Of a DNA stretch of 64,000 nucleotides, positions 24,601 to 54,805 are shown piece after piece (within the stretch, counting starts at the first letter, position 1; each line of letters begins with the position of its first letter). The notes below the pieces were generated by a model. The model saw nothing but the letters and a program-made list of their open reading frames with translations. It searched no databases and was not told where the DNA came from. This DNA is from Alligator mississippiensis (taxonomy: Eukaryota > Chordata > Crocodylia > Alligatoridae). Location: the NCBI RefSeq assembly GCF_030867095.1, contig NC_081828.1:47717434-47781433 (forward strand). Reading direction: 5' to 3'. Both the position numbers and the translations under genes were made by a program.

Positions 24601-24624
24601 CATGGTATCTATCTGCAACAGGCT

Positions 24625-24890
24625 TCCATATGTCGATGCCTGTGGGCATCAGGAAGCGTAGCTGCAGGGAGTTCTGGTGCTGGAGGAGTCTGATGGAAGG
24701 TGATGAACAGGCTCTGCAGAGAGTGGATGTGGTGTGAGGTGCTGGTCTCTGTATATTGAGACCCTGTCCACTCTAGCTCCTTCCCAGGAAGCTGCCAGAA
24801 CCAGCTCCAGGAGTTACTGCCAGTGATAGAGGCACCAGTGACCATGTAGATCAAGGTGAGAATCTGTCCTGGCTTCTGTACCCATGGTTG
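24625..24890 (-). pseudogene. IGHV-type V segment pseudogene (VH4-like)
   Basis: The - strand translation has a V-domain framework: LTQPWVQKPGQILTLIYMVTG (FR1), then GASITGSNSWSWFWQLPGKE (CDR1/FR2) and LEWTGSQYTETS. The VH4-type pattern is VKPGETLTLTCTVSG...WSWIRQPPGKGLEWIG. The first core Cys is replaced by Tyr (LTLIY for LTLTC). FR3 continues only after a frame change (QNSLQLRFLMPTGIDIW), and no Tyr-Tyr-Cys or recombination signal is recognisable. It lies about 170 bp from the next V segment, too close for two complete genes. Clearly non-functional. Confidence 0.78.
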
Positions 24891-25029
24891 GGTGAGAGAG
24901 TCCTTTTGGGGAGTCCAGAAGGGCAATGGTGGGCACAAAAAAGGGGGAGCCTGCAGAAGGGATGTGTGTGTGAAGGGACTTGACTGTCAATGTGAAGCTG
25001 GCTTCATTTGCTGTGCAGAATCCAGTTCC

Positions 25030-25068
25030 CCTTTTGGCACAGCCCCTGCCCTGCTCTGAGTCACTGTG
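25030..25068 (-). promoter_or_regulatory. 23-bp recombination signal of the V pseudogene at 25069
   Basis: Read on the - strand: heptamer CACAGTG (25062-25068), a 23-base spacer, nonamer GCCAAAAGG (25030-25038; consensus ACAAAAACC). The heptamer is perfect and the spacer is exactly 23, as in heavy-chain V segments. Confidence 0.85.
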
Positions 25069-25362
25069 TAGCTCCTGGCACAATAATATGTGGCGGTGTC
25101 TGTGGCTGCCAAGGAGCACAGCTACAGGGAGAACTGGTTCTTAGAGGTGTCTCTGGAGATGGAGATTCATTTGTGCAGAGCTGAGTTGTACCCAGTGTTG
25201 CCATTGTAGTAAATATACCCCATTCACTGCAGCCCTGTCACTTGAGACTGCCAGATCCAGTGCCAGTATGTGTTCTCCAGACAGCACAGGTCAGGGTGAG
25301 GGTCTCTCCAGGGTTCACCACTTCTGGGTCAGACTGGACCAGCTGCACTTGGGACAAGACAC
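25069..25362 (-). pseudogene. IGHV-type V exon with 23-bp RSS, broken
   Basis: After a TTTCCAG acceptor the - strand reads SQVQLVQSDPEVVNPGETLT, LTCAV, then HTYWHWIWQSQVTGLQ, stop, MGYIYYNGNTGYNSALHK, stop, ISISRDTSKNQFSL, stop, LCSLAATDTATYYCARSY. Both core Cys (LTC and YYC) and the core Trp are present. At least three in-frame stops and a shortened CDR1 disable it. It ends directly at a recombination signal (separate entry). No leader exon was found upstream. Confidence 0.88.
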
Positions 25363-25699
25363 CTGGAAACAGAGAAAGACTGGAGTGAAATACAATGCAA
25401 CTCATCTTTCATTTGGGGGTGAGGGCAGCTGAACTCCTGGCTACTAAGTGAACAGCAGTCAGGACTGACTGTAGGGAACATCCCCCTGAGACATGGACCT
25501 GGGGTGAGGAGGGAGAGAGAGGAGAGAAACAGCCATAGTGGGCATGTCCAGATGAGCATGAGGGTGCCTCTTGCAGCATCTCAAACCCTTTTGAGACACT
25601 GCAGGATGCATGTGTGGGAACAAAAAAATGTTCCCCATGCTGCATATTTACAGTGCAGGGGCAAAATTTAGTACCTGGATATCCAGGTACCAAAATAAA

Positions 25700-28250
25700 A
25701 CCTCCATGGAGACACTCTGGTACCTAGCCAGAGCATCTCTATGGCTGGCCCTTGCCCCAGTGCTGAAGCATGCTGCTTGTGCATGCTGCTTGTGCATGCA
25801 AGACAAGCTGCACGCAGGCTGAAGGGATCTGGACCTGGGCTCTGTGCCAGGTAAGTAGTGGGTGGGGGGCTGGAGGAGGGAGGAGTGGACCATGGGGGGG
25901 GGGCCTGCCCAGCCCCCGCTCGCTCCCCCAGCCCCGCCGATCATTCCCCTGCCCAATCCCACCCCCAATCGCTCTCCCAGCCCCCCTAATCACTCTCCAC
26001 CTGGCCCCAGCCACCTAGCCTCATCCCCCCAGCCCCCCCATCATTCCCCTGCCTGGTCCCAGCTCCCGATCACTGCCCTGCCCAGCCCCAGCATTCCTGC
26101 ACTCACCGGCTGTAGCAGCGGCTGTCAGGGCCACTGGGGCCTCATGGCAGTGGGTCAATGGGGATTGGCCCCAGCTGCTTGGCACCTGCACTGCTGCTGC
26201 CACATCGCGCAGGTGCAGCCTGACTCGGCAGGGCACTGTGCAGCACCATGCGCTCTCTGCCAGCTTGGGGCCACTGTTGCTGTTCCTCAGAACCTGGTGC
26301 TGCTCAACCCAAGTGACCCCAAGCTGCCAGACAGGCCTCGGCACCACGCAGCACCCTGCCAAGCTGGGCTCCACCTGCATGACGCAGCAGTGGCAGCATG
26401 GGTGCCAGGTGGCCAATCCCCACTGCCTCCCACTGCCCCATGGGGGTGAGGGCAGGGCTGTGCCGTGAGGCCCCGGCAGCCCCAGCGGCTGCTGCTATAG
26501 CCAGTGAGTGCGGGGATGCTGGGGCCAGGCAGGGCAAAAATTGGGGGCTGGGACTGGGTGGGGAAATGATCATGGGGACTGGGGGAGTGAGCAGGGGCTG
26601 GGGCCAGGCAGGGAGCACATAGGCCCTGCAGGGGGCATGTCACCCCTGTTAGGGGACTTTGGCCCCTGTTGAGGGACTGTTGGCCCCTGTTGGGGGCTGT
26701 AGCCCCTGCTGAGGGACTGTAGCCCCTATTGGCTGGGGGGCTGTGGCCCTGTGGGGGAGCAGTTTGTGAGCTGTGGGGGGGGGCTGCACCCTGCGGGGGC
26801 AGAGAACCCACTCCTCCTGAGCAGCCCCCCCATGCACCCCCCACAATCCACCCACAAATCCCACACCCCCAAGCCACCCCCACAAACCCCTCACCCACAT
26901 ACCTGGCCCTGTGGGTCAGGAGTGAGGAGACTGGGGTGGGTTGAGAGTGAGGGGCAAGGGCAGGGGCAGGGCATTGGCATATCAGTGCTGCTCAGCGCTG
27001 CACATCCTGGTGAGCAAAGAGAGTAAGGGCAGCTCTGATTTTTTTCTACGACAACATCTTCCAGGCGCTAGTTGCCTAGATGGCCAGGCAGTGGCACACA
27101 TGGCAGTAGTGCTGCACAAAGGCCAACTGTGCAGCCACAGCCCACTGGCAGCTGGCCCAGAGGTGCAGATGCCTCTAATGGTCATGCAATCCCCATCTGG
27201 ATCCGGCAGTCACACAGCCTTGGGGCCACATGCTGTTGCAGGTGGCAGCAGGTCACAGGCAGGCAGCAGCCCCCACTACCAGACTGCTGCAGTAGGTAGA
27301 GGGTGCAGGGAACTCTCAGGGCTGCTTAGCAGTCCAGCTGGCACAGAGAGTAGTGTCCCCAGGTATCAGTTGGCCGGGCCCCAGAAGTTCCTGAGAGTGA
27401 GTAGCCCTGAGCTACTTGCCAGGGCAGGTTTTTATACTGCTGGGGCCAGCAAAAATCTCCAGCTCAAATTTGCACTGCTTTTGTTCGAGCAGCTACAAGC
27501 ACACATGACTGCATGTGTGGATGTGCCCAGTGACATCATGTGCTGAGACAGGCAGTATCTCCCCAGAGCTGCCAGTTCCTGCCTCTGGACAGGTGCTGTA
27601 GCCCTGCAAGAGCTGGGATTTAACCCGGGGGCCTGTGGCTCAAATTTGCATCTCTGCTGCCCTTGGGGAACAGCAGAGCCCCGTCTGGGGCTGCCCAGGA
27701 GGCCTGTCCCTTCTGCTGTGGCCCCACCCTCCTGCCTCTGCCCTTCCTCCACCCTCTGTTTCCAACTCAGCTTTGCAACCAGCCATGAACAACACGTGCC
27801 CCCGCCAGGTTGGGGGGCACGGTGGCATTGGCAGCAGGAGCATGGCGGTGGTAAGTGGGGAGCTCCCGCAGACACCACCAGCGGTGTTGCTGGTAAGGGG
27901 GGAGGGTGGCAAGTGGCGACCACCCACAGGTGCCGCTGATACTGTTGGCGGCACCTTTTTGTAGGGGGTGCACTGCCACACTCAGGGGGTGTACTTGCAC
28001 CCCCTACACATCACCAATGCTACCAGCCCTCTCTCTCTCTCTCCCTGGCCCTCTCTCTCCTTCCTGTACTTGTGCTTTCCCCAACCCGTGGGAATCCTGC
28101 TCCCCAAAGCTGGACTCTAGCTTGGTCCCTGATCAAGCCATGAGGGTCATGGAGGGGGCCTAGCCCACTCTTGTGGCCAGGCAGGTGATGCCCTATGCCT
28201 GGCTGCAGGGCACGGAGCCAAAATTGCCATCTTCTAGCCCTGCATAGCCC
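25700..28250. other. GC-rich, low-complexity region inside the V cluster
   Basis: Long C-rich or G-rich strand asymmetry (25900-26100 CCCAGCCCC-type; 26400-26800 G-rich) gives spurious open frames of up to about 200 codons on both strands. A tandem of about 20-22 bp (GGCCCCTGTTGGGGGACTGT-like) occupies roughly 26620-26770. Related phrases at its edges (AAATTTGCACTGC, GATGTGCCCAG) suggest one or more dispersed elements. I see no V segment or other gene here. Confidence 0.5.
26620..26770. repeat. Minisatellite, about 21-bp unit
   Basis: Six or so imperfect copies of a unit like GCCCCTGTTGGGGGACTGTG. Each unit is itself nearly palindromic (CCCC...GGGG). Confidence 0.7.
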
Positions 28251-29230
28251 AGGGGTTTTGAAAAGACAGACGCAGGCACTACTAAGCTCACTGTCCCTTC
28301 CCCCTTACTCGGGACTGGGAATGCTCCTTGCATGGAGCCCTATGTCCTGGGGAGGGGACTGTTAAAGCAGTAAGGGGAGCGTTGGGGCAGGAAGGCCCAG
28401 CCTGGAGAGCAGCATGGCAGAGGTGCAGGAGACTCCATACAGCCCAGGCCATGGGATGCAGGGCCTGGTGCTGAATCAGAGACCAGGGTGAGCTCACGGT
28501 GGAACTCTCAGTGCAGGACACTGGGGTGAGAATAGGTCTGAGCTGGGACTGTCAGTGTGTCTGCCTATGAAAAATAATAGTGTGTGTTTACCTCTATGAA
28601 GGAAAAGAGTAATTTAAAATGGAGGATGGGTGTGAAGCAGAAGCAGAGAGAGGTGATGATGAGGAGCAGCTTCAAGACAAGAATCAAAATCTGTGGAAAA
28701 GCAAGGCCATTCCTAGGGGAACAGGGGCCTGATTCCCTGTGCAGTGCAGTAAGGTTGGCAGAGGGAGCAGCTGAGTTGTAATGAGCCCTAAAGTCAGTGT
28801 CCATGTTCAGTCCCTAGTGTTCAGTGCCCAGCAAGGTGCTGGATTTCTGTGCCCAGCCCTGTCTGCTGCAATACCATGTCTGTGAGTACAAGGACAGTGA
28901 GGTCAGGAAGGGAGCGGCTGCTCTATGCTAAGTGTTCTCCTGCCCGGGTTTTGTGGGGGCGGTCTCTGACCTTTAACTCTTGTCTGTGCTGGTTCATTCT
29001 GGTGCGGACTGGTCTGCATCCAGTTTCCCCCCACAGTTTCCACAGTGACTTTTGGTGCAATGCAGAGGAGATCCCACAGTCTGGGGACCCCACATCCTCA
29101 CATTTAGACAAGTGCTCTGTGGGCTCTGTTGGTCACTGTTCTGGCTGGTTGTGGGCAATGGAGATGTACTGACAGGTTTTGCATCTCTTGCTCAGGGAAG
29201 TCATGTCCCATGCAGTACCTGTGGCTCATC
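28250..29230. other. Stretch between V segments; nothing identified
   Basis: No V framework, leader or recombination signal could be read. The open frame at 28849-29172 (+) has no family resemblance. Confidence 0.4.
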
Positions 29231-29239
29231 AGGGAATTT

Positions 29240-29520
29240 GCTTCTCTGACACCCAGAGCTGTAAGGATTTCTCTGACCCAAGCTCCAGATAAGAGCAGGT
29301 CTGCATCTGCACATGCCAATCATGTGCAGATGCAGCAGCCTTCTGGAGCCATCTCTGGGGGTGGTGAATTGCTCTTTAACACTGTCAGTGGAGTGTATGG
29401 GACTGGAAGAAGTGATAATACAGGCAACCCACTCCAGCCCCTGCCCTGGAGTCTTGGCAGGAGACATGCAGAGTCTCCAGGCTTCCTCACATCTGCTCTA
29501 GACACCACCAGATGCACCTA
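29240..29520 (-). pseudogene. IGHV-type V segment pseudogene (VH3-like)
   Basis: The - strand reads [20 protein letters not shown] then STDSVKEQFTTPRDGSRRLL and HLHM. This matches VH3 FR2-CDR2-FR3 (APGKGLEWVAYISSS...YADSVKGRFTISRDN...LYLQM). A remnant of FR1 (ADVRKPGDSA) lies just upstream in another frame. The core Cys residues, Trp and the YYC end are not readable and no recombination signal was found. It is on the same strand as the other V segments. Confidence 0.72.
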
Positions 29521-29764
29521 GGATTGGAGCCCTAGACAGGAAGTAGGAAGAAAATCAGTAAGGATCAACCATAAAAAAATGTATTCTTCTGACTGCAGTA
29601 AATCCCTGGGCAGAAGCGGGGCAGCTGCAGCACAGAACAAGCAGAGCCAAAGGGGCCTTGTCACTGGGCTGGTGGGAAGGGACTGGATCCTGCAGTGACA
29701 CAGGAGCTGCAGTTTCAGCTGCCTCTGCTGGGGTAGAGTTCAAAAGGGAGTTGTCACCCTATGT

Positions 29765-29950
29765 CAGGGACAGGCAAAATGCGGCCCGTGGGCCAGATGC
29801 AGCCCACCAGGCCATTCTATCCGGCCCACAGGGCCCCTAAAAATTTAGAAAATTAATATTTATCTGCCCCTGGCTGCCTGTTATGTGGCCCTCGATGGCT
29901 TGCCAAAACTCAGTAAGTGGCCCTCTGCCTGAAATAATTGCCCATCCCTG
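29765..29950. mobile_element. hAT-like MITE with 8-bp target duplication
   Basis: 186 bp, starting CAGGGACAGGCAAAATGCGG and ending GCCCATCCCTG. The flanks CCCTATGT (29757-29764) and TCCTATGT (29951-29958) match at 7 of 8 bases. The outer block GCGGCCCGTGGGCCAGATGC resembles the ends of 8225-8660 and 55954-56996, suggesting one family. Confidence 0.82.
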
Positions 29951-30304
29951 TCCTATGTGCATCTGTGTCTGCTCATCTTAGGCTTGCTCAGTGCCTCCCT
30001 CAGTGCAGGGGCTCCTGGGCAGGCTTCCCCTGAGGGGGAAGCACATGGCTCCTCTGACCATCTCCAACCCCTTAGGGTGAGCAGCCCCAGCCCCTGTCTG
30101 CCAGCAACTTGTGTCTGTGGGGTGAAGGGGAAGGGAGCAGCCCTCAGCTTGGGTGCCAGGTCATGGAAGTAGTTGTAGAAGGGCTGGGAACCTGGAACAG
30201 CAGGGTTGAATGGGCTGTACTGGGGGAGTGGGGAGCTGGTCAGGGAATGACTAGAGGTGATGGGGCTGGCTAAGGCACAGGGAAGAAGCCTCTATTGGGT
30301 GTCC

Positions 30305-31051
30305 CTAGGGTGACAGTGATTTGGGTGCTGAAGAGGAACCTGGAGTTCTTGCAGAAGGGTTGGGCAAAGTCTCTGGCTTCTTCCCATCCCCTCTAGACTT
30401 CACCAGGGGAGCCTGGATTAATATGTGGGCTGCTGGGGAGAAAAAAAAAAAGATCTGCCTAGAAATTGTAGTAGGAGAAAGAGCCTCATTCCATGGCCTG
30501 AGACTGCCCAGACCATGGGCAACAGCACCTTCCAAAACTAGTGCATTGAAAACCAGCTGGGCCCATGTCTCCTTCCCCTGGTGACATAAGGGAGTTGCTA
30601 AGTGGGTCACTGGTCCTGCACTGATCCTGGGACTGTGCCATGTCCCTCCAGGTTTATTCTGGGCAAAAGCAGGCAGATTGGCACAGGGAGCTGCTGCACA
30701 GGGAGCACCCTCTACATTAGGGACACAAAACAACTCCCTGTTAAGGCCCTTTCTCTGCACTGCTTCCTTTCCCCCACGGTCAGTGCCAGAGAGTGCTGTG
30801 AGTCCCAGTGGTGCTGAGGGTTGAGGGGGCATCTCAGTGAATATGGGTATGGGGAATGGGACTTCCCAAGGCATTTCGGTAATTTCTGCCATCAACTCTA
30901 TGTAGGACTGGGGGGTCTTGTCTGTGGAGGCCCCTCCGGCCTCAAGGGAACAGTCTCCAATAAGTACATGTTTCTCTCTTTGCAGTCCCAGGGTGTAACA
31001 GACTCTCTTGCCTTTAGCAAGACCCTGTGAGGGTTTAAGGGATGAATCCAA
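30305..31051 (-). other. Unexplained 248-codon open frame
   Basis: An uninterrupted frame from ATG to stop on the - strand. The predicted protein is Pro/Ala/Ser-rich and resembles no family I know; no transmembrane pattern or catalytic motif is visible. It is long for chance in this base composition but has no splice or promoter context. It may be chance or the worn body of a repeat. Not claimed as a gene. Confidence 0.2.
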
Positions 31052-32390
31052 AGGGGGAAGTAGAAGGGACTGGGTTTGAATCCTTTCTGGTCAAAGCCTG
31101 CTGCTTCCTTGCTACAACTCTTCCAGACTCTATTAGGCCAGAGTTGAAGTTTCACTATGCAGGTCCCAAAGGTGCATGCATCACATTCAGTGCACTGGGG
31201 CTCCTGAGCCAGCAGCTGGAGACTGCAGGTTTGCTGGATGATGTGGAAGAATGAAGCTCCTGGTCTGTTTCTTCAGCTGAGATGTCTGGTTCTTTTTCCA
31301 CTTCATTTCTGCTGACTCCAGTTAACACTGCAGATCTAGTCCTTTCCTGTCCTGGCAGGAAGGCAAGTCTGAGGCTTCTCATGATGTTTGTTTTCCCATA
31401 GCTGAGGGAGCCCAGAGATGTGGCAGAGGTTATGGGAGTGGATGGGGATTTTTTTCTACTCTCCCTGAGTCTGGGTGGTTTACAGGATGGTCCTCAGTAC
31501 CAGATCTTGAGGCCAAAGGCAGCTAGGCAGGTTCCCAGTATGCAGGGAAGGGGTTCCCAGTATGGGAGGGCTGGGTCAGCTGCTGCCTCCCAAGAGCACT
31601 GCACTCGGGCCTGGCTCTATGCACAGTCACCTGGGTGCCGGCTTAGTGCTGGGACCTGTGGCCCTTGCAGGGCTTGGTGTCCTGCTACCCCCAGACTTGG
31701 TGTCCAGGAATGATGCCTTCTCCAAGGGCCCCATGGTTCCTTCCTGATGAGGTGCTTCCCAAGGCCTTGGAGTTACAGGGGGAGCTCAACCTTTCATAAA
31801 CACTGCTCCAGCATAGGGGGCCCTAGGTTAGGTGCTGTGATGGGACCCTGGCCATCCCTGTGGAGAGCTCCGAGTATGGGCATGGGGGTTGGTGAGAGGA
31901 GGAGCCTGTCAAAGTGGACAGAACAGGACATTTCATAGGAGGGTTCAGGAGACTGGTTTCAAGGGCATAGGTGGTTGTCAGACACCTGGCTCTCCCTGGG
32001 CATGAACAGGTGCTGGGCACTGGCCTGGTGTCTGTACAGCCGAGGGGCCCTGGGAGGTGGGCCCTCAAAGATACTGATGCCTTGGGCCAGTGATTGACAA
32101 GGCATTTCCACTGTCTGTGGATCCAGAAATGCCTGGGATGGGAGTTGCTTGGATAGGGCTGGTCCGCGTCCCATCCCCTGCAGCACTGCCCTTAATGGAT
32201 CTGTCCTGCATCTCAGCTAGTGCTGCACATCAGCAGAGGAGGGTGTGGTGATGGACGACTGGGGACCCCTGTCTGAGACGTGTGGAGCAGCAGGTGAGCA
32301 GGCCTGACATAATTATGTCCCACCCACCTGGCCTGAGGGCCAATGCAGCAGGAGCTGGAAAGCCAGGTACGTGTGGTCTGCTTGGAAGCG
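31052..32390. other. Stretch between V segments; nothing identified
   Basis: No V framework or repeat boundary was recognised. Confidence 0.4.
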
Positions 32391-32395
32391 CTTCC

Positions 32396-32434
32396 TCTCT
32401 TTGCATGGCCCCTGCCCTGCTCTGTGTCACTGTG
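32396..32434 (-). promoter_or_regulatory. 23-bp recombination signal of the near-intact V segment
   Basis: On the - strand: heptamer CACAGTG (32428-32434), a 23-base spacer, nonamer GCAAAGAGA (32396-32404). The heptamer is perfect. The nonamer keeps the CAAA core but is weaker than consensus. Confidence 0.85.
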
Positions 32435-32901
32435 TGCTGGCTCTGACACAATAATACATGGTAGTGTCTGTAGCTGTCAGGGAGCACAGCTGCAAGGAGA
32501 GCTGGTTCTGGGAGGTGCCTGCAGAGATGTCAGCTTGGCTCTGGAATAATGGGAAGAGGGCCGCTCTTCCCATCTCTGGCAAATATGCTCCAATCCATTC
32601 AATCTCATTTAGCTGCTTTCCAGGTCCCAGTTGGACCCAGAACCAACCATAATTGTTATCAGTCAGGGATACACCAGAGACAGTGTACTGCAGAGTAAGG
32701 GTCTCCCCAGGCCTCACTGCACCTGGGCCAGACTGCAGCAGCATCACCCCCATGAGGGCACCTGAGAGAGAAGGGACAAGACCAGGACAGAATGAGCCAC
32801 CTGCCCAGCCCAGGGCTTGGCCCCACATCACTCCCCATCTGCTCCAGGGACTTACCTGTGGGGGCAACGAGCAGCAGGAGGAAGAGCAGAACAGCATCCA
32901 T
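32435..32901 (-). CDS. IGHV-type V segment, near-intact (leader + V exon)
   Basis: Immunoglobulin heavy-chain-type variable segment of VH4-like build. Leader exon 32856-32901 encodes MDAVLLFLLLLVAPT, a hydrophobic signal peptide, and ends at a GTAAGT donor. V exon 32435-32761 follows a CTCTCAG acceptor. The spliced frame is open: GALMGVMLLQSGPGAVRPGE, TLTLQYTVSG, NYGWFWVQLGPGKQ, EIEWIGAYL, SQADISAGTSQNQLSLQLCS, LTATDTTMYYCVRAST. The core Trp and second Cys (YYC) are present. The first core Cys is Tyr (LTLQY where LTLTC is expected), so the disulfide cannot form. An extra Cys lies in FR3 (QLCSL), a position also Cys in the segment at 25069. Flanked by an octamer and a 23-bp RSS (separate entries). 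Either a recently disabled gene or an unusual V; a VH-delta-type segment is also possible. Confidence 0.88.
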
Positions 32902-33016
32902 CCTGCTGTGGGGTGAGGCAGCTCCTGGCAGGCAGAAGTGGGCAGGGCAGGAGCTGGGTAGAGACTGAGGCTCTGGGATTCAGGGGCTGCATTTACCCAG
33001 GAGCCCCTGGGCAGGG

Positions 33017-33024
33017 ATTTGCAT
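33017..33024 (-). promoter_or_regulatory. Immunoglobulin octamer ATGCAAAT
   Basis: A perfect ATGCAAAT in the direction of transcription, about 115 bp upstream of the leader ATG at 32901, the usual place for the Oct-binding element of VH promoters. The surrounding 40 bp resembles the region upstream of the V pseudogene at 34110-34548, where the octamer reads AAGCAAAT. Confidence 0.85.
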
Positions 33025-33140
33025 GTGGGTTCCCTTGGGAGGATAAGAGCTGAAAGCATTGGACTCCTGCCTGCACTGGGGTCTATATGAAGGCTCGGCC
33101 CTGCAGGCTGCTTTTTGAGCAGACTGTAATGTGCACTGTG

Positions 33141-33566
33141 CCTTGTACAGTAATACTGGGCCTCGTCTCCAGGTTCCAGTCTACTCAGCCACAGGTGTGT
33201 TCAGCCTCTGGAGGTGTCTCTGCTTAATCTGAGGAGGCTCCTTAAAGCATAGCCCCCAGTCTATAGAGCTGCCACCAGTTCCAGCCCTTTCCCTGCTGAC
33301 TGGAACACCAGTATGTGTTGCAGTTTATGAGCAAGAACCTGGACATGGAGCAGGTCTGACTGAAAATCCCTCTAAGCTCCTGGACTCCCCACCAGACCGT
33401 ACCAGGCTGTCTTAGGTGCACACACCTACAGGGAGGGACAAAGTCAAGGGAAATAATACAGGGATTCTGGGTTGCAGGTACATTTTGGCTGTATCAGAGA
33501 ATTCATAGTACAGGCTGCAGATGGGATAAGACCAGCAGGAGGGGGATGGCAGTGCTGGAGACCATG
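33141..33566 (-). pseudogene. IGHV-like V segment pseudogene
   Basis: The - strand 3' half reads VFQSAGKGLELVAAL, stop, TGGYALRSLLRLSRDTSRG, stop, THLWLSRLEPGDEAQYYCTR. It has a V-domain FR2 and a classic D-E-A-x-Y-Y-C end, followed directly by a perfect CACAGTG heptamer (33134-33140). A nonamer-like TCAAAAAGC follows after only about 15 bases, not 12 or 23. Upstream, an ATG at about 33566 starts MVSSTAIPLLLVLSHLQPVL, which looks like a leader. FR1 and FR2 contain several stops and frame changes. Broken. Confidence 0.7.
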
Positions 33567-34109
33567 GTTGTGATGCTTGGGCAGCTCCCCAGGGGGGTGG
33601 CAAGCTAGACCCAAGCTGCCTTGATGCTGGGGCCCTGCCTGCAGCTGCTCTGTAAAGAGGGAGCTTGTTTTCAGGGGCTGAAGGCTGGGGACATTACAAA
33701 GGGTCACCTCTGAGGCTGGCTCAGAGCTTCCTAATGTGCAGTGGCCTGGCAGGTGGCTGGGTGACCCCAGCTTTGGCACAGAGGCTCTATAAGGATGCAT
33801 GCACTTGGCCTCTCTATTTCCTGCACCTGCTGAAAGCAGTTGCTACTCCACCCCCAGGGTCTGGTGTCAGGGCTCTGAGCAGTCTTGGCAAAGCTCCACA
33901 TTTTCATTTTTGTAGTATCATCTTCCTCTATGCATTCTGGGCAATCCCTGTGAGGCTGCAGCATCTCTCCTGCCTGCGACTCCCCTTTTGGGTGCAAGGG
34001 ATCATGCAGGAACCTCTTCGGCCTGAGGAGAATTGGTCTGACAGTAAGCTTCCCTCTGTTTGCAGCCCCTGCCTGGTCTGTCGCTGTGCCCCTCACTTGG
34101 GCCTTCTCC

Positions 34110-34548
34110 TTGGCTCAGTAGTAGATGGCACTGTTAGCAGCAGTCAGGGCATGCGGCTGCATCTGCACCTCCTCCTTCCAGGTGTCCTGGGTGATGCAAA
34201 TTTGGGAGGCCAGAGCTGGGTGGTAGTTGCTGGTTCCAAGCTCCATGCTGCTCTGAATGGAGCCCAGCCACTGGAGCCCAGCTCTGGAGGCTGCCGCAGC
34301 CAGTGCCAGTAGTGGCTGCTGACAGAGGCCCCAGAGACTCCACAGGTGATGCTGAGGGAGACCTGATGGGCTTCATATCTTTTGCCTGGGACTGGGCCAG
34401 CTACACCAGGCACCTGGGAAAGGGGAAGAATGCTCCATGTAGCAGGGGCTGCTGCCTTCACCTCCTGGGAATATTCACATGAGAGGAAGGAAAAAATAAG
34501 AAGGGACAGGAGCCAGGAAATTTTAATGGGGTCTACAGCAGAAGGCAC
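34110..34548 (-). pseudogene. IGHV-type V segment pseudogene with leader
   Basis: The leader starts at 34548 ([20 protein letters not shown], hydrophobic). After a CTTTCCCAG acceptor the V exon reads [20 protein letters not shown] then [11 protein letters not shown], keeping the first Cys and the core Trp. The frame is then lost near the FR2/CDR2 border. The expected second Cys codon is TGA (reading IYY-stop-AKEK). A heptamer-like CACAGCG is seen about 30 bp downstream without a convincing nonamer. An octamer-like AAGCAAAT (34644-34651, one mismatch) lies about 100 bp upstream of the ATG. Confidence 0.85.
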
Positions 34549-34699
34549 TGCTCAGAAGACAGGAGAGTACAGGGCAGGGGTTTGGCAGGGACTGAGGCTT
34601 TAGGAATCAAGGACTGTATTTACCCAGGAACTCCCAAGCAGGAATTTGCTTGTGGGTTCTACTGGGTGGCTATAAGGAAGGCGGTGCTGTGAGCCCTTA

Positions 34700-35405
34700 G
34701 TGTGTGGGTTGTCCCCTCTGGGCTTGGGGTCATCTTTAACCATGGGCAGACCTAGGATTTTGAAAAGGGGGTGCAGATGGTGTGGTTCATCATCACATAT
34801 CACACAACACAGATTGTTCTCCAGTTCAAGAGAAACTGGAAGATTTGCTAACCTGCTAGGAGCTCAGTGCTGTATAATACAGCTTAAGATCAAAGCAAAA
34901 GCTAATATAACTTTATTGGAAGAGGGGCTCATTTGATAGCGTATATATTAAGTTTTAAAAATACACAAAAAAAAAACTAGGCAAAAATAGTCCAAAATAC
35001 TGTTTTGTTAGTCCTGTAAGTCATTTTCACATGCGAGTTAATGTTTCCCTGAGTTAATATTACCACATCGGAGTTAGTTCTAGCTAAAAACTAACAACAG
35101 TCTTCCCAGCAGTGAAACAGGAGAGGGAGATTAGCAGGAACAGTGAACAGACAGAAAAATTACACAAGAAAGAATAACCTGATTAGTTGAACACTGAGAC
35201 CATTAAAAAGGAGAAAGTGTTATTAGTACCTTTGGAGGACAGAGAGATGAGCAGGAATCAGGTACATTCTACTGAGCCATGAACTTCATGCACCCCCTCA
35301 GCACCACTTAAATAGAAATGTCCCCGCCTCCCCTCTTGAAGCTGTTAGTTTAAAGTTTGGGAGGAGAAGGCAGAGACGGGCAGGTCAGTGTCTGCATGGG
35401 ACATA
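34700..35405. other. AT-richer spacer; nothing coding seen
   Basis: No family recognised. The sequence looks like unique or very old repeat DNA. Confidence 0.4.
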
Positions 35406-35409
35406 TCAC

Positions 35410-35695
35410 ATTTTTGCTATTTGATGTTGCACATCAAAGAGCAACTCACAAAGAGACTCTCATGGACCTAGAGGAACAGACTTTCACCTTCTGCTTCCGC
35501 TGTGCAAAATTAAGTTTATTTTCAACTCATGGGGACTTTTTACCATCTTTAAATTTTCCCCTGAGCCTGAAGGAAGGGTGCGTGCACCCAGAAGCTTGCA
35601 GAAAAAAAAAAAACAACCTTTTTTTTGTGATTTCTTAGTTTGTCTAATAAAAGGTATCATCTCTGAACCAGGAGTTCTAGAGTTTTGCATTTATT
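35410..35695 (+). repeat. Third copy of the inverted-repeat family
   Basis: It carries the same ordered blocks as the right arm at 19240-19500: CATCAAAGAGCAACTCA, TGTGCAAAATTAAGTTTATT, GGGGACTTTTTACCATCTT, CCTGAAGGAAGGGTG, AGAAGCTTGCAGAAAA, TCTAATAAAAGGTATCAT, AGGAGTTCTAGAGTTTTGCA. It is more diverged than the two arms are from each other. Confidence 0.8.
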
Positions 35696-36223
35696 CTGGG
35701 TGGAGTTTGTATTTAACATGGAAACCCTGGGATGTGGTTTCCTATGGTGGCTATACAAGTCCAGAGCCTGCCTGGTCAGGGAGTCCCTCCCTAGATGCCA
35801 TGACATGAGGAGCTCCTGCTTGCAGGGCTCCTGAAGGGACCGGGATGTTGGGCTGAACAACCCTGTAGGCCTGGGAACAGAGAGAACAGTTCCCTGGACT
35901 GGGAAAGACTGGGTTTCCAGGCAAGTGGCTTTCATTTATGTTAAATCCAAGGGACTGAGATACGTCTGCCAGGTGGCAGTGATATTTCTCATTCATTTGA
36001 GTTACACAGGGAGTTCAGCCTTGAGTCCTGCTGGGGTGGGGTCCAAGCCTGTTGAGATAACCCATAACCCAGGAGCCTCAGGTGGGGGTGGGGCCCATGA
36101 GGAGCCCAGGAGCCTGCAGCAAGATGGAGACCCAAGCCAGGTCAGCCCAGGGAAAGGCCGAGCTGGGCCAGAGTAATCACAAACCCAGAGTGGGCCAAGC
36201 CAGACTAGAGGATGCACAAGACT

Positions 36224-36332
36224 GAGTGGGGGCTGCTGCATGTGGGACTGGGGGGTCCGTGAGCCCAGGGGGAGGGTCTGTGAGCCCAGAGGGGAGGGGC
36301 TGCTGTGTGCAGGACCGGGGAAGTCCGCAAGC

Positions 36333-36364
<32 letters not shown>

Positions 36365-36510
36365 CTGCTGTGCATGGGATGGGACTAGGGGTCTGCAAGC
36401 TTGAATGGCGAGGGTGCTGCTGTATGTGGGACCGGGGGTCCACGAGCCTGGAAGGGGGGGGGGCAGCTGTGTGTGGGACCAGGGGTCCATGAGCCTGGAG
36501 GAGGTCAAAC
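36224..36510. repeat. G-rich minisatellite, unit about 60 bp, with a 30-G run
   Basis: About five imperfect units of the type GGGGCTGCTGTGTGTGGGAC then CGGGGGTCCATGAGCCTGGA. One copy contains 30 consecutive G at 36335-36364. The long Pro-rich - strand frame across it is a composition effect. Confidence 0.85.
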
Positions 36511-36539
36511 AGACTGGTAGAGGAAACACAGGGAGGCAT

Positions 36540-36730
36540 GCGCCCCCCCCCCGACAGGGCCGTCCCCGCAACTGATGCTGCCAGCAGCTTCTGCAGATGC
36601 TCACCAGCCCCGATTCCGATGCTGACGCCGCTGGTGGCTTCTGCGGGTGCTTGTCAGCTTTGTCCCTGCCACCGCTGCCACTCACAGCTTCTGCAGTTGC
36701 CCCCACCTGACTCAGGAGGCACCAGTCACC
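36540..36730. repeat. GC-rich tandem, unit about 60-65 bp
   Basis: Three imperfect copies around AGCTTCTGCAGATGC / GGCTTCTGCGGGTGC / AGCTTCTGCAGTTGC, each preceded by GCTG/CCGC-rich sequence. Confidence 0.6.
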
Positions 36731-36749
36731 CATGAGCTGAAATGTATAA

Positions 36750-38190
36750 AAAGATTAAAGAGAGAACATCTGTGAGGCTTGGGGCGCAGTATTGTGGGGG
36801 TGAAGGAGTCGCACAACTTGCCCTTAAGGCTCTTGGTGCCTCACAGGGGCCTTGTCAGGCTGAGAGGAGGGTGTCACCAAGCCTGAGGACTGGAGCCAGG
36901 CTAGATGGGTCTTGCGAGAAACCCAGTGGGAATTTACTGGGATTAGGGCTTACTATAAAGGCCTTTTGGCTGCCTCCCTGAATCAACATATAATATTTAA
37001 GAACAAGGTGTGGCAGGCAAGTAATCTAGGGAGAGCAGCATTAGAGTTTGAGGCAGGAGTGGTAAGGCCACTAGGAGGCATCACAGCTGCCCCTGTGGCA
37101 ATAAGCTTGTCACAGCCTTCTTAGGAATTAAGGAGCACTTGGAGAAAAGCAGTTTCTCCTCATTGGAATGGGTGTGTAGGGAGCTCCAGCAGAACCTAAG
37201 GGAGTTAGGAGCACCTGATCCCAGCACTGGGAGGGGCTCAGGCCCTGGACTAACAGCAATCCATTGCCAACCTGAAGAGAGGCTCAGTTCTCATGCTTTC
37301 ACCCGTCACCTGATACTGCAAGTTCTGTTTCACGGGGCAGAGCTAGTATGCAGGCACAAAGATATCCTTCTGGCTCTGTCTTTGGAACCCTGGGTGGCTC
37401 TGACAGATGCCCTGCAGTGCTTGGGGTCTGAGCAGGTGAAGCTGAGTGTAAGCCAAGGGCCTCAGTGCTCATCTCAGAAACTCCCAACTCTTGTCACTGT
37501 GGTCCCATATGAGTCTGAACACATGAATAGGCTCCCCCAGCTGACCTGGGCCCCTGCTCCAGCAACATTTCCCACCTCAGCATGAGTGTGGCTGCTGAAA
37601 ATCCCCAAGTCAGTCACACAGACCATCTTGGATGTGCGAGGACCCCTGTCCCTTCTGCCCCATCTCAGCATTGCTTTGAGGCAGGAGTTTCATTGTTTCC
37701 TATAACTAGATCTGTGCCATGATTAGCTCCCCACAGTGAGCACCATGTGAGGGTGGGAGAGTCTTCCTCCCTATTCATGTATGTGGGTACAAGCCCTCTT
37801 GTGCATCAGAACAGAGTGAAAGATTGGCCTGAGTTCTCAAAAGAGCCCCAAGCCGTGGGGGCGTCTGTGTGTCTTTCTGCTCCTCACCCAGTTCTGCCTG
37901 CTGACACTCCTGTCCTGTCTCAGCTCTGGCTCGGAACTCTCAGGGTCTGGACTGGAGCCTGGTATCCCCATAAGATAAGCTCCAGGACAGAGCAGGACTG
38001 TGCAGACCCTTTTCCTCCCCCAGGACAAAGCTTCTGCCCCTACCCTGCCCCAGCACAGCCCTGGAAATCCCCTGCCAGCCCCAGCCCAGCCCAGTTCTGG
38101 CTGCAGCCTCGGGGGGGGAGGGGGGGGGGGGCACCTTTAGGGATACTGTGATATATGAGGAAGCTGTTGGGGAGCGTTATGCTGTGAGGC
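36750..38190. other. Unassigned stretch, possibly repeat-derived
   Basis: No V segment or host gene recognised. The block at 36745-37130 has a TATAAAAAG-like box and a retroelement-leader feel, but no ends or duplications are visible, so it is left unassigned. A 9-12 G run lies near 38110-38130. Confidence 0.3.
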
Positions 38191-38590
38191 ATGGAAGTTG
38201 CCCCCTTGGTCAGAGCTTCTCAGGGAATAAGAGGGAGTGATGCTGAGAGCAGAGGCTTCCCCTTGGCCCCCACTTATGGGAAGCTCCTGGGTTTTTCTTC
38301 AGGGCTTTCAGCCCCACAGCCCTGGCACTGGTCTGATGGGTTCTGTGGCCCATCTCAGCTTCCCATGTGTCGGGGGGGGGGGGGGTGGAATTTCCTTGCA
38401 CCCACCAAGGACACATTTCCTAGGGGAGCCTCTGGATCTGCACCTAGGTTTGGAGACACAACCAACCCACCAGTAACTCACCACACAACCCCCTCAGCCA
38501 GACAACAAGACCACCTCCTGCCCATTCACAACCTCCCTGCCTAGACCAGGCACCACAAACATACATGCATGTGCACACCACCACCCCACA

Positions 38591-38591
38591 A

Positions 38592-38622
<31 letters not shown>

Positions 38623-38638
38623 ATACACACACACACAC
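38591..38638. repeat. (AAAT)n then (CA)n microsatellite
   Basis: About eight AAAT units followed by seven CA units, inside the array. Confidence 0.92.
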
Positions 38639-40539
38639 CCCCACACCATGACCTGAGGGATGGCCAGTTGCACCCCCAAGAAGATGCCACAGGCAGCCAC
38701 AAACCTGCCTCAGAGGCTTAACTGGGAAATGTGTCCCTGGAGGGTGCAAGAAAACTTTTTTTCACTTCAACACATGGGACAATAAGATGAGCCACAGAAC
38801 CCATAGGACCAGTGCCCAAGCTCTGTGGCTTCAAGCTGCACAAGGAGCCCAAAGATAGGGTTTGGGCATGCCATGACAAGCCCTGCATCTTTGCAGGCCA
38901 GAGTCCTGGCACTGGTCAGATGGGCTCTACAGTGCATCTCACCTTGGCATGCCTCAGAGTAGGAAAAGGAAAGTTATCTAGTGACAGTCATAAATAGACA
39001 CTTAAGATAACCTGCAAGAGGCAGATTTAAAACTGGCAACCTTGCAGTCACCAGTTCATAACTCAGGCCCTTCAGCCACATAAGAGGCCTGCTAGGGCCC
39101 TCTCTACAAACCCAGGGCTCCCACTGTCACTGGCCAGAAACAGGCACATGCACCCCACCAGCTTCAGGAGCCCCCCCCCCCAAAAATGTTTAAGTTAATG
39201 GGCCATGTAAGAGGGCCCTCTGCCCAGCAAAAAGGAGACACGAGCAGCCCCAAGCTCTCCCCTTTTATCTGCCAGCCTCATGATGAGCCTCAGAGATGCT
39301 TTGCAAGCCCCCAGGCCTGCTGCCAGGCCTGCTGCCTTCTTACCTGCTATGGGCTGAACTCTCTCAGCTGCCTCAAAATGAAAAACACCCCAAGAAAATG
39401 CATTTTGGTCGCACCAACTCATCCAGCCTCACGCACATTCCCAGGACTCTCAGGGAAGCCAAGCTAGACTCTGGGGGCTTGTCTTGGCCTGCCCAAACCT
39501 GGCACTTGTCAGATGGGCTCTGCAGCATATCTCACCTTGGCATGTCTCAGGGCAGAAAAAAGAAAAAAAATGTATGCAGTGACAACCATAAATAGTGACT
39601 TCAGGTAACCTGCCGAGAGGCAGACTTGACCCTATGACCTTGGGACTCCCAGCTTGCAACTCAGGTCCTTCACCCACAAAAGAAGTCTGCAAGGGCCTCT
39701 TCTGCAGACTCAGGGCTCCCCCTGTCACTGGCTGGAAAACAGGCACACACACCACACCAGCTTCAGCAGCCCCCCCAAAAAAATTCATAGGCCATGTAAA
39801 AGGGCCCTGTGCCCAGCAAAAAGGGGCAACTATCAGCCCCACACACTCTCCCCTTTTATCTGCCAGCCTCATACTGAGCCTCAGAGACACTTTGCAAGCC
39901 CACAGGCTGGCTGCTTTCTTACCTGTTAGGACCCGACCCCTCTCTGCTGCCCCAAAATAAAAATTAAATAAAAACAAAAACATTCATAGGCCATGTAAAA
40001 GGGTCCTCTGCCCAGCAAAAAGGGGCCACGAGCAAATCCAAACTCTCCCCTTTTATCTGCTAGCCTCATGCTGAGCCTCAGAGATGCTTCACAAGCTCCC
40101 AGGCCAACTGGCTTCTTACCCGACCCCTCTCGGTTGCCCCGAAACTAAAAAAGAACCTAAGAAAGTGCATTTTGGCTGTACCTACTCACCCATCCTCACA
40201 CAAGGGCTCCCAGGAAAGCCCAACTAGAATCTGGGGGCTTGCTGTGGCCTACTCAAACCCCTGCCCTGCATCTTTGCCCTGGCACTAGCATCATGTTCAG
40301 CCCCAGAGATACAACACAAGGCTCCAGGACTGCTGATTTCCTCACTGCTTGGGCCTCAATGGCCTCAGTTGCCCCAAAATTGAAAAAGAAATAAAAAATC
40401 ATTTTGGCTGTACCAAGTTCCCCTTCCTCACAGACACTCCAAGTTCTCCGACTGAAGCACAGGCTTGAGCATTTGCTAAGGGAGTTCTGGTACTCATGAA
40501 GGGCCATAGGGGCCCCCCCAACCTCTAGCCCCTACCCCT

Positions 40540-40790
40540 GACCTTTTGATCTCTGACCCCTGACCCCAACCCTGACCTTCTGAGCATGAACCCTGACCTT
40601 TGACCCCAGCCCCTGCCCTCTGAGGTCAATGTATGTTCTGTGGCCCTAACCACTGACACAGGCCCCTGACCCGTTGACCCTTGGTGCTGATCCCTGACCT
40701 TTTGACCCGACTCCTTGATCTCAACCTCTGACCTATGGCACCCAGCTCCTGACCTTTTGATCCATGACTCCCCACCCCTAACCTGAGAGT
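40540..40790. repeat. CCCTGACCTTTTGACCC minisatellite, block 1
   Basis: Many imperfect copies of a 14-20 bp unit such as CCCCTGACCTTTTGACCC. A second block of the same unit lies about 1 kb away (41535-41870), within the same array. Confidence 0.85.
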
Positions 40791-41534
40791 CTTAACATCT
40801 TAACTTGATGTGTCAGGGGACAAAAACAAAAAAACCTCACAGCCACAAGGGCTACCATTTGCAGCTTTGGGGCTTCAGGTCTTGGTATGCCATGCCAACC
40901 CTGAGTATTGGCTCTACAGAGGCCTGGTACTGGTCATGTTATCTCTGGAGCACATCTCAGCCTGGCATGTGTTGGGAGCAGAAAGAATGGTCACAAGTCC
41001 AAGGATTGTTTGTTTCAGCTGAGAAACCCAAACCCACCCACTAGGGCTAGAGCTCCCAACTTCTTTGTTTTCATGTCACAACACAAGCCACTTGGCTAAA
41101 GCATCCGGGGCTAGGCTGCTCCCCTGAAAACATAAAGAACTTCACTATCCAACCCCCTATACCAATAAATAGGTAAATAAATAAAAAATTGAAGTGCCTT
41201 GTGCAAGGGCCCTGTTTCCAGCAAGAAGAGGCCCCAGGCAGCCACAGACTTCCCTTTCTTATCTACTGCCCTCATGCTCAGCCCCAAACATACTACACAA
41301 GGCTCAGGGCTGCTTGCTTCTTACCTGCTAGGGCCTTGATAGTTTTGGCAGCAAAGTTTTTAAAAAAAAAACAAACCCAAAACAGATTTTGGCATGTCAA
41401 GTCACCAATGCTCAGAGATACTGCCAGGGCTCTGAATGAAACATGGGCCAACATCTGGGGCTTGGCATGGCATGCTGGTTTTGGCATGCCATGCCAAGCC
41501 CCGAGTATTTGCCAAGTGGAGCTCTGGCACTTGT

Positions 41535-41870
41535 CAAGCGCCAAAGGGCCCCCTGACCTAAACCTATGACCCAGGACCCCCAACCTCTGGCCCCAACCCC
41601 CGACCTTTTGATATCTGACCCCTGACCTCTGACCCTCACCTTTGACCCCCCAAGCCCTTATCAAAACCCCTGGACCCTGACCTTTGACCCCTGCCTCCAG
41701 CCCCTGCCCACTGAGGTCAATGTATGGCCCCGAGCACTGACCTTTTGACCCCGATCCTGACTTTTTGACATCCTGAACGTTGCCCCCTGACCTTTTAATC
41801 CCCGACCCAAACCTGGCCTCTAATCCCTGACCTCAGTCTCTGACTCCCCACCCCTAACCTTTGAGTCCTA
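41535..41870. repeat. CCCTGACCTTTTGACCC minisatellite, block 2
   Basis: The same unit as 40540-40790. Its position relative to the array anchors is also the same, so the larger unit including the minisatellite was duplicated. Confidence 0.85.
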
Positions 41871-42900
41871 ACATCTCAGCCTGACATGTGTTGCGGGGCA
41901 AAAGAAAAAAAAAAAAACCCAAAAAACTCACAGCCCCAAGAGCTGCCATTTCCAGCTTTCAGGTTTTGGGTTTCAGTCTGCCACACCAAGCCTGAGTCTT
42001 TGCTCTGCAGAGCCCTGGCTCTGGTCAGGTGACCTCTGGAACACATCTCAGCTTGGCATGTGTTGGGGGCAAAAAAGGTCTCGGACATTCCCAAGTGCTG
42101 CCATTTCCAGGTGGCATCCCCAGGCCCACTCACTGTGCCTTGGCTTTCCAACTTTCTGGTACCCAGCTCATGACCCAAGCCCCTTGGTTAAAGAGCCCAG
42201 GTTCCAGGCCTGTCCCCTGAAGACCTCAAGAACTTCACTAAATAAACTTCCTCCACTCAGGAAGAAGAAAAAAAGCTGGGAACCTTGGTGTGAGATAGTT
42301 CTGTCATTATCTTGCAACCGGCAGGGTGGGGGCGTGGGGATGGGTACCTGGATGCTGGTCCTGTTCTGAGAGCTGCTGGCAGGAGGCAGCTGCAGGCAGA
42401 CTCTCAGGCCAGGCTGATCACCATGGTGGGGCTGCCTTCCCCTGCTGAGGGCCCAGCTGGCTCCAGCCCCTGCTGCGCAGAGAAGGGGTGGAGTGGTCTG
42501 CAATGCTGGGCGCATCCCCCCTCACCTGGTGCTGGGGAAAATTCCATCCAGACAGGATTAATGTGCAAGGGGCTGGCTGGGGTCAAGACGGGCTGGGTAG
42601 AGCAGCATTTGGACTGGGGTTTGCACATTCAGCCTTGTAACCGGAGGGCAGTCAGGGTCACCGTGCTCTCCCCTGTTGCCTCCTTTACCGTGTCAAATTG
42701 CCGACTAGCACCTTCTAATTCTCGCCCGCCACAACTTTGATCTTGTAAATATATTCATAGGGAGGCTACCTTTCGTCTTCTGGTCCATGGTTGTCCTGTT
42801 ACCTCTAGTTTGTCTACGGTAGTGTGTGTTCCGTACTCTTCAGCCTTATGGGCTACGCATGGCTCCTACCACCCCTGTACCATACCCCAAGCCTCGCAGG

Positions 42901-43610
42901 TGTAACGGACGTTGTTCTGTCTCTCTCTCCGTCTCCACACCCTCTCTGGCACTTGGGCTTTCCGCAGCCGTCTCTCTCTGTGCCTTCTCAATAATGCCGC
43001 CCTCTCTCCGGGGCTCTCAAGTGCTGCCCCCTTTCCTGGGGCTCACCACAATGCTGCCCCTTTCTCCATGGCTCACCACACCTGCAGTGGGGCTTCTCAG
43101 CAATGTCCCCTTCTCTGGGGCTTCTCAACTGCCCCTCTCTGGGGCTGGGGTCTGTGCACCCCAAATGCTGCACCCTCACTGGCACTGGGGCCCTCACACT
43201 GCTGTGAGTCCCCTATGAGGCCTCCTCCAACCCCTAACAGCCTCACCCAAACCACTGGTCACAAACAGCAACACAAAAACAAGCCCCTGGGCTATGATAC
43301 AAACAGAAGCTGCCCAGCTATAATCATGCTCAAGCCTACCAGGGTTTCTTCATCTTGCAGCAGAGTAAAACATTGCTCCTGCAACAGGCTTCTCCGCTGT
43401 AACATGGCTGAGAGCTCCCTCCTCCTTGGCTGCTGGTAGAGAACTGCATCTGGCCTCTTGCCTGTGATTTATATAGGAGCCAGGCCCTGCCCCTTCTCGT
43501 CAGCTGGCTAGGTAGGTGTGGGTCGTTATTTCCCACTAGTTGCCTCAGCAACCGGCACCTGAGGGGTTATCTGGCTCTCCAAGTAGCAGGCACCTTAGTG
43601 CCCTACTACA
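42901..43610 (-). mobile_element. LTR-like fossil (probable solo LTR)
   Basis: 710 bp. On the - strand it begins TGTAGTAGGGCACTAAGGTG and ends CGTCCGTTACA, a TG...CA element. Its first ~35 bases are homologous to the starts of the LTRs at 46267-47376 and 47629-48658 (TGTGGCAGGGCACC...GTGCC.GCCACTT). A TATATAA box lies within it in the same direction. No target duplication is clear and no internal region was recognised. Family: unclassified LTR retroelement. Confidence 0.6.
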
Positions 43611-44268
43611 AGCCTGATCATTTGTGATGGCTTTTAGAACAGGGGTGTGTGTGTGTGTGCGCCTGCAGTGACACACCCCAGTCCTACTCTGCGCTGTTCC
43701 CCTGTGAATGGTGCTGTCCAGTATCTCTTGGCCCCTAAGTGAGCAGGACCTGTACCACAGGGCCAAGCTGGGAGGCAACTAATGGGGCACATGCCTGGGC
43801 AGGGCTGAACTCCTCCCTTTGGCTCAGGCAGGTTGTAGATGCCCAGGATGTGGCACTGGGGGCTCCTGCCTGGATGCATTCACTCCCAGAGATGGTCCCT
43901 GGGTTCAGGAGAGGGTCTCTGATGGGTCACCGATGTTCCCTGCCATTCCCCTCCCCACATTCAGGACTCAGGGCCTTCCTGCCCTTCCCTGAGCACTCAG
44001 ATCCCTCTTGAGCTCCAGACACTGGACTAGGGCTGGTCCTAAAGTGGGGATGTCACTGGGCATCCACAGTGCAAGAAGAAGGCATCTGCCCTCCCTGACA
44101 CCTTGGGCCCCAGCTCATGTGCTCCAGACAGGGACACTAGGAGGAGCCCTCTTCCCCACTTCCTGCTGCTAGTTGAGGGGCTGGCAAGTGAGGGATGTGT
44201 GCGCCTGTGTCACAGCAGGGTAGCATGAGGACAGGCCCTGGAAGTGATTTTCTCAGTCCCTGCAGTAA
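43611..44268. other. Spacer; (GT)n near 43646; nothing coding
   Basis: A short GT/GC repeat lies at 43644-43661. No gene or further repeat recognised. Confidence 0.45.
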
Positions 44269-44270
44269 GA

Positions 44271-44309
44271 GGTTTTTGTCTGAGCTATGCCTGGTTTCCT
44301 CTCACTGTG
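44271..44309 (-). promoter_or_regulatory. Perfect consensus 23-bp recombination signal
   Basis: On the - strand: heptamer CACAGTG (44303-44309), exactly 23 spacer bases (44280-44302), nonamer ACAAAAACC (44271-44279). Heptamer and nonamer both equal the consensus. It directly follows a badly damaged V segment. Confidence 0.92.
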
Positions 44310-44575
44310 TTTCTGGCACAGCCATGTTCTTGGGCTTCAGACTCCTTATTTGCAGGTATGGAGAGATCACAGATGTCTCTGGAGATGGTGAATTGTCCTT
44401 CCACAGCCTTGAAGTACCACTGGCTCAACCCACTTGGTTTGCTGACAGTGGCCACCCACTCCAGTCCCTGGCCAGGAGCTCAACAGACCCAGTACATCTG
44501 ATAGGGAAGGTGAATCCAGAGGCTTTGCAGGTGAGGCACAGAAGGGCCCTTGTACATGTGATGGCGGTTTAGTCC
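44310..44575 (-). pseudogene. IGHV-type V segment pseudogene (VH3-like), 5'-truncated
   Basis: The - strand shows LLCLTCKASGFTF (FR1 end with core Cys), [36 protein letters not shown], then [16 protein letters not shown], in more than one frame. This matches VH3 (LSCKASGFTF..YWVRQAPGKGLEWVA..FTISRDN..LQMNSLKPEDTAVYYC). At least two frame changes and one stop occur, the YYC end is lost, and the start of FR1 and any leader are absent. The recombination signal beside it is perfect. Confidence 0.82.
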
Positions 44576-54620: not shown

Positions 54621-54625
54621 GAGAC

Positions 54626-54805
54626 AAGGATCTTTGTGAGTGGCAACTTTTATTGAACCAATTGCATGGCTGGGAGACATTTAGACAGTCTTTCAGGCAC
54701 AAGATACTTAGACCTGAGGATGAGTATTTTGTGTCTAAAAGTTTGTCTAAATATCTCCCAACTATGCATTTTGTCCAATGAAAGATATCACCCACAAAAA
54801 TCCTT
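54626..54805. mobile_element. Fold-back MITE with ~65-bp inverted ends
   Basis: The left end AAGGATCTTTGTGAGTGGCA then TTTTATTGAACCAATTGCAT and GGGAGACATTTAGACA is complementary, imperfectly, to the right end TGTCTAAATATCTCCCAACT, ATGCATTTTGTCCAATGAAAG, CACCCACAAAAATCCTT. It has no coding capacity. The ATTGRACCAA block recalls the repeat family at 18620-19500. Confidence 0.75.

Follow-up and report, generated by a model that had tools for sequence, protein, structure and literature searches.

A 64,000-nt stretch of the American alligator genome (Alligator mississippiensis, C5:47717434-47781433, NC_081828.1; hereafter the window) carries seven antibody heavy-chain-type variable (V) segments between UCK2 and an exon resembling ANKRD45 (Table 1). 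The assembly spans 2.35 Gb in 195 contigs, and contig C5 measures 220.9 Mb. An initial annotation of the window, made from its letters alone, had counted at least seven V segments, all on the minus strand, over 20 kb, and this count held. We searched 264 kb of C5 (the window plus 100 kb per side, with no N) with an nhmmer DNA profile built from 11 immunoglobulin heavy-chain V (IGHV) exons of contig C7 of the same genome. Eight rows were returned, all on the minus strand, which correspond to seven V segments at window positions 24612-44536. The 200 kb of flanks gave no IGHV row with this profile, which is of the VH4 (heavy-chain V family 4) type; it still caught the VH3-type segments V44 and V29, although heavily degraded VH3 remnants in the flanks may escape it. 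A regular-expression search of the window for immunoglobulin V motifs gave seven rows, mostly unrelated, while Rfam (at gathering scores) and ARAGORN had no match there.

Table 1. Features of the window, in window coordinates, and other VH-type places read in the genome. RSS, recombination signal sequence; ORF, open reading frame.
Feature	Position	Strand	Remarks
V24	24612..24882	-	apparent VH pseudogene; nhmmer 24882-24612, E 4.6e-34; no recognisable 23-RSS
V25	25030..25370	-	apparent VH4-like pseudogene; nhmmer 25348-25021, E 4.8e-75; frameshift and stops
V29	29280..29530	-	VH3-like fragment; nhmmer 29454-29326, E 2e-5, and 29518-29471, E 0.0099
V32	32396..32761	-	V exon 32761-32435; nhmmer 32750-32388, E 1.5e-84
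V32 leader exon	32856..32901	-	ATG, GT donor; read from sequence; inside block common with C7
V32 putative promoter octamer ATGCAAAT	33017..33024	-	exact; read from sequence
V33	33112..33435	-	apparent VH pseudogene; nhmmer 33418-33112, E 3.6e-9; heptamer, no 23-spaced nonamer
V34	34043..34415	-	apparent VH4-like pseudogene; nhmmer 34406-34043, E 7.2e-27; frameshifted
V44	44271..44570	-	apparent VH3-like pseudogene; nhmmer 44536-44300, E 2.6e-9; frameshift and stop
Block collinear with C7:5841745-5844327	30263..33355	-	V exon, intron, promoter, intergenic DNA
UCK2 exons, left neighbour	3446..13443	+	two matched to solved UCK2, others from ORFs
Tandem duplication of right flank (~+67.6 to +86.3 kb, window coordinates)	53951..64000	.	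direct
ANKRD45-like exon, broken	62384..62674	-	frame lost after codons for ACMAGQS
Other VH-type places read (eight sequences)	C6:17.183, C11:75.659, C14:17.706, 20.026, 20.926, 20.988, C15:38.397, C16:14.272 Mb

Both VH4-like (V32, V25, V34 and V24) and VH3-like (V44 and V29) builds are present, as had been annotated and as reading frames and the tree described below agree. Judged by three-frame reading, all seven segments look non-functional, which the initial annotation had missed. Six of the seven have a broken frame or have lost much of the exon. V32 is the sole segment with an open frame, in which Cys23 has become Tyr. V24 has Tyr at the expected first Cys and an out-of-frame framework region (FR) 3, and forms with V25 a unit of a V followed by a truncated V; V34 has a stop in place of the second Cys codon, and V29 is the weakest of the set. 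Recombination signal sequences with 23-bp spacers had been claimed for three segments. Our scoring, which took in V24, V25, V32, V33, V34 and V44, found CACAGTG, a 23-base spacer and some form of nonamer in V44, V32 and V25; heptamer and spacer are thus as claimed, but only V44 has a perfect nonamer (CACAGTG-23-ACAAAAACC). The nonamers of V32 (heptamer at 32434-32428) and V25 (heptamer at 25068-25062) are weak, at 5/9, and those of the three closest C7 relatives of V32 score 6/9. The heptamers of V34 and V24 match at 6/7 and 5/7, neither with a good nonamer. Between V34 and V44 there are also degenerate repeated units (window 38321-42081), 60-87% alike and spaced by ~0.2-1.4 kb, and a dispersed repeat of ~160 bases (window 34740-34900), of which at least 39 further copies, 79-86% identical to it, occur on C5 and on seven additional contigs.

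The segments are related to the IGHV genes of C7. A protein search of the genome with V32 (best 150 of 508 candidates) ranked C5 itself first; C7:5842377, 7655121 and 5556163 followed at 69-72%, and most of the remaining matches fell in an array on C7. Among the matches listed, the main IGHV array runs along C7:5.1-6.83 Mb on the plus strand, and C1-set exons (best 150 of 471 candidates) lie beside it at 6.99-7.21 Mb on both strands. This two-strand arrangement fits the inverted alpha and IgD2 genes of the American alligator heavy-chain (IGH) locus described in the portion of PMC4279169 available to us. The protein search with V44 gave 57 further matches, all on C7, at 49-69% amino-acid identity. 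At the DNA level, and relative to the C7 exons in hand, V32 and V25 are 82-83% identical over aligned bases and the other five segments 68-74%; V25 reaches 82% with two C7 V (L019 and L020) over 295 aligned bases, V29 71% with C7_5852025 over 136 bases, and the closest exon to V33, C7_5831987, is at 68%. A DNA search with the V34 region (33980-34730) gave seven short matches besides itself, at 68-79%, in VH places of C7 and C14. In the PDB, the listed matches to V32 are heavy chains of antibodies or constructs made from them; the best whole-chain E value (5.1e-42) sums two V domains, a single domain giving 1.5e-19. Pfam placed a sub-threshold V-set domain (18 bits, cut-off 26) and a weaker Ig_3 on V32 and had no match on four other V pieces.

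The likeness to C7 extends well beyond the V exon. The block around V32 is collinear with C7 at 5.842 Mb, and its core (31564-33100) is identical at 0.811 of 1497 sites: 0.794 in the 3' intergenic part (829 sites), 0.825 in the V exon, 0.802 in the leader intron and 0.868 on the promoter side. BLAST gave 76% for the block; identity falls to 0.65 or less above 33130, and the window has ~0.5 kb extra near 31.0-31.55 kb. In a DNA search with the 1792-base block, for which 40 of 237 candidates were scored, full-length matches were found at four places: C5 itself and three on C7 (5.842, 5.556 and 7.655 Mb), the C7 copies being 96.6-98.5% alike among themselves. V32 shares with the C7 trio an Asn-Glu-Ile insertion in FR2, which among 12 exons aligned was common to these alone. 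The V of the C7 blocks have open frames and both Cys and lie in or near the main array, whereas V32 has lost the Cys23 that all three relatives retain. The next V downstream on C7 (5844843) is 75% identical to V25; the V25-V24 unit finds a better partner at C7:6432572-6433384 (78%), and a unit on C16 reaches 73%. V25-like stretches on C7 (5.874 and 5.588 Mb) lie ~31 kb downstream of V32-like V (5.842 and 5.556 Mb), in the same order as in the window.

A tree of V segments had been called for by the initial annotation, and we ran one with 31 V exons of the alligator's own genome (IQ-TREE, TIM3e+R3), in which many nodes are weak. V32 groups with the C7 trio (support 100) and V25 with the C16 orphon (support 88). 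The C5 set is scattered over the IGHV tree: the smallest clade that holds all seven segments is the entire tree, so the set is polyphyletic within IGHV. The segments were therefore diverse before the move rather than the product of a single V that multiplied on C5. Because intron, promoter and intergenic DNA are common with C7 in the same order, and because the set is polyphyletic, transfer as a block of DNA rather than by retroposition is supported, as far as the sequence can tell. The same conclusion had been drawn from "seven segments with leaders, octamer", a ground that is too wide because V32 is the one segment for which we read a full leader exon and an exact octamer; by its motif we take ATGCAAAT to be the promoter octamer. 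A retroposed or processed immunoglobulin gene was considered and rejected: the V32 leader intron is present, and V32, V25 and V44 have germline recombination signals.

The extension of the flanks that had been proposed, to look for more V segments, joining (J) segments and constant (C) exons, covered 100 kb per side and found none. Seven C-exon queries gave no match below E 0.12 in the 264 kb; one of them (L051) came from a wrong frame, and the remaining six, which look sound, recovered one another with E values of 3e-4 or lower. C5 does not occur among the 150 top-scoring of 471 C1-set candidates. One strict J-type motif occurs in the 264 kb, without a recombination signal, and the reversed sequence gave four. 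The 264 kb thus appears to hold no J segment and no C exon, diversity (D) segments being outside the search. Taken together, the segments are IGHV by sequence, lie on another chromosome than the array, and are present as unprocessed genomic copies, which is the make-up of an orphon cluster, one of three options that the initial annotation had put forward.

On the left, UCK2 stands as annotated by two exons (3446-3604 and 11349-11450) that match solved UCK2 at E 2.3e-24 and 4.5e-9, and by eye its 3' end lies near 13443. The annotated right-hand neighbour fares less well. The frame of the ANKRD45-like exon in the window is broken, which had been overlooked, and a flank copy runs on: an intact-looking exon on the minus strand at +79205 to +79642, 15.2-15.6 kb past the window. 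What had been annotated on the right is thus a duplicate with a disrupted frame. Its name, presumably ANKRD45, is that of the initial annotation; a PDB search with the window exon gave nothing and hence no name, and Pfam gave only sub-threshold ankyrin matches on the flank copy. The two copies belong to the tandem duplication of the right flank, of which the direct pieces are 78-90% identical; further pieces, at 50596-52155, correspond to the flank in reverse orientation.

We consider it very likely that the C5 cluster consists of IGHV orphons, pseudogenes only, whose DNA was copied from the C7 array. A stretch of the array bearing several already diverged, co-oriented V would have been copied as DNA between UCK2 and ANKRD45 on C5. 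Separated from the D, J and C exons, the copy could then make no contribution to heavy chains, and point mutations, frameshifts, deletions and insertions would have worn it down. The cluster most likely has no present function. Several observations weigh against this explanation. The best C7 partner of V25 is at 6.43 Mb (78%) and those of V32 are at 5.56, 5.84 and 7.66 Mb, the last of them (7.655 Mb) beyond the main array; a collinear partner of V24 is known solely through the V25-V24 unit, and V29, V33 and V34 have none. In addition, the dN/dS ratio of V32 relative to C7 is 0.52-0.59, below 1, a mean over both lineages that may be pulled down by constraint on the C7 lineage. In favour of the explanation, with eight C7 outgroups, the changes on the V32 lineage fall 7/7/7 by codon position (13 non-synonymous and 8 synonymous) and the 11 on the C7 side fall 5, 5 and 1 (9 non-synonymous and 2 synonymous), both being small numbers.

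The scattered partners could also mean that several IGHV insertions occurred independently at one unstable spot. The best partners of V32 and of V25-V24 are ~0.6-1.2 Mb apart on C7, the distance from V25 to the V32 block is 4.9 kb on C5 and 0.5 kb on C7, and the insertion site bears a tandem duplication as well. Independent insertions would nonetheless have to account for seven segments on one strand, for an order of V32-like and V25-like V that recurs on C7 at ~31 kb, and for differences of 17-32% that separate every one of the seven from the most similar C7 exon compared; we regard them as unlikely. The origin as a block is clear; a single event is not, as V25 and V32 have their best partners at different C7 places. 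IGH loci are difficult to assemble, and a fragment of the locus might have been wrongly joined into C5. This is very improbable because the cluster differs so much from all other copies found: among the matches listed, no second copy comes nearer than ~76-83% DNA identity. The segments are moreover more decayed than most C7 V listed, C5 DNA lies on both flanks, and the 264 kb has no N.

The two other options of the initial annotation did not survive. Birds have second T-cell receptor (TCR) delta loci with antibody-like V, and the accessible text of PMC5278385 names an unconventional TCR-delta-2 locus in duck, which speaks for a VH-delta-type set. The nearest relatives found are, however, array-type IGHV of C7 and not the V near a TRAC-like exon (C7:8085922, minus; 25.5 bits, E 0.0255, just above the family cut-off). 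V32 has only 40-44% amino-acid identity to the V nearest that exon, and V44 has 50% (E 0.001) versus 67% (E 7.5e-8) to its best array match; no C exon or J was found near the cluster, and all seven segments look inactive. We hold a VH-delta set to be highly implausible. Between the C1-set exons and the TRAC-like exon, C7:7597101-7692175 bears plus-strand IGHV-like segments, and a copy of the V32-like block (97%) is among them. An outer-end position in the alligator IGH locus would suit a one-strand set of both VH builds, yet the IGHV array and the adjacent C1-set exons are on C7, a contig separate from C5, which leaves this option practically untenable.

If the cluster is, as we favour, an orphon set derived from the C7 array, its divergence bears on its age. 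Kimura two-parameter (K2P) distances to C7 are 0.149 on the promoter side (174 sites), 0.205 in the V exon, 0.235 in the leader intron, 0.249 in the 3' intergenic and 0.251 in the distal part; the core gives 0.225, or 0.193 at 570 sites outside CpG-like contexts. At the crocodilian rate of 3.9e-10 per site per year, which its own source calls rough (PMC4299795, in the part available), distances of 0.149-0.251 translate into ~190-320 million years (My), for comparison with an alligator-crocodile split of 97-103 My given in the same part of that source. The K2P distance dates the split from the C7 block and so sets no more than a maximum age for the move, which would be younger had the DNA come from a different block, since lost. 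Rates also differ, since the V32 branch (0.162) is longer than the stem of the C7 trio (0.058). The flank duplication, with K2P of 0.106-0.136 over four direct pieces, comes to ~136-174 My at the same rate, and the V block split from C7 before it, a split that again limits the move from above only. It is possible, though on balance doubtful, that the move is older than the crown of living crocodilians and that the cluster is a relic of an ancestral archosaur IGHV array, one in a series of exports. A relic between UCK2 and ANKRD45 would then be expected in every crocodilian, and perhaps in birds or turtles.

VH-type matches outside C7 were found on at least six contigs, C5, C6, C11, C14, C15 and C16, in the protein search with V32 and a second VH protein search, which took the best 150 of 508 and of 738 candidates. 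The VH at C6:17.183 Mb has stops. The places on C11 (L054) and C15 (L055) are 100% identical over 1201 bases, lie ~0.3 Mb from the ends of their contigs, are free of stops across the V match and bear CACAGTG-23-ACAAAAACC; they are 91-95% like two of the C14 places (L056 and L057). Three copies on C16 (14271700, 14860841 and 15168269; L045) are 100% identical over 1001 bases. These copies suggest that some orphon copying in this genome is recent, and VH orphons on several contigs imply that the export of IGHV DNA was repeated. The six orphon-bearing contigs should be excluded from germline V sets for repertoire sequencing.

No title on crocodilian IGHV orphons was present among the open-licence papers listed, the word "orphon" is absent from the accessible portions of PMC4762898 and PMC11754216, and the available portions of the literature on recurrent segmental duplication, including PMC3790853, hold nothing on orphons. 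Within the genome, the C16 unit resembles V25-V24 in being a V followed by a truncated V, at 73-75% identity. Unlike the window unit, it has been duplicated on C16 in recent times, the protein search shows a V frame free of stops, and the 1 kb read around a C16 copy contains no V32-like block. In human, according to the available text of PMC7555362, IGHV orphons lie at 15q11.2 (9 IGHV and 10 IGHD) and 16p11.2 (16 IGHV), and orphons are unable to contribute to immunoglobulin chains. The human orphons and the C5 set are alike in being genomic IGHV DNA on non-IGH chromosomes with no contribution to an immunoglobulin chain; the C5 set differs in its ~19% core divergence from C7 and in that all seven segments look inactive. 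Human orphon sets are younger and partly open. Orphon V sets are known in human, and the C5 example looks old; with such divergence, it could act as an outgroup in studies of how the crocodilian IGHV array expanded.

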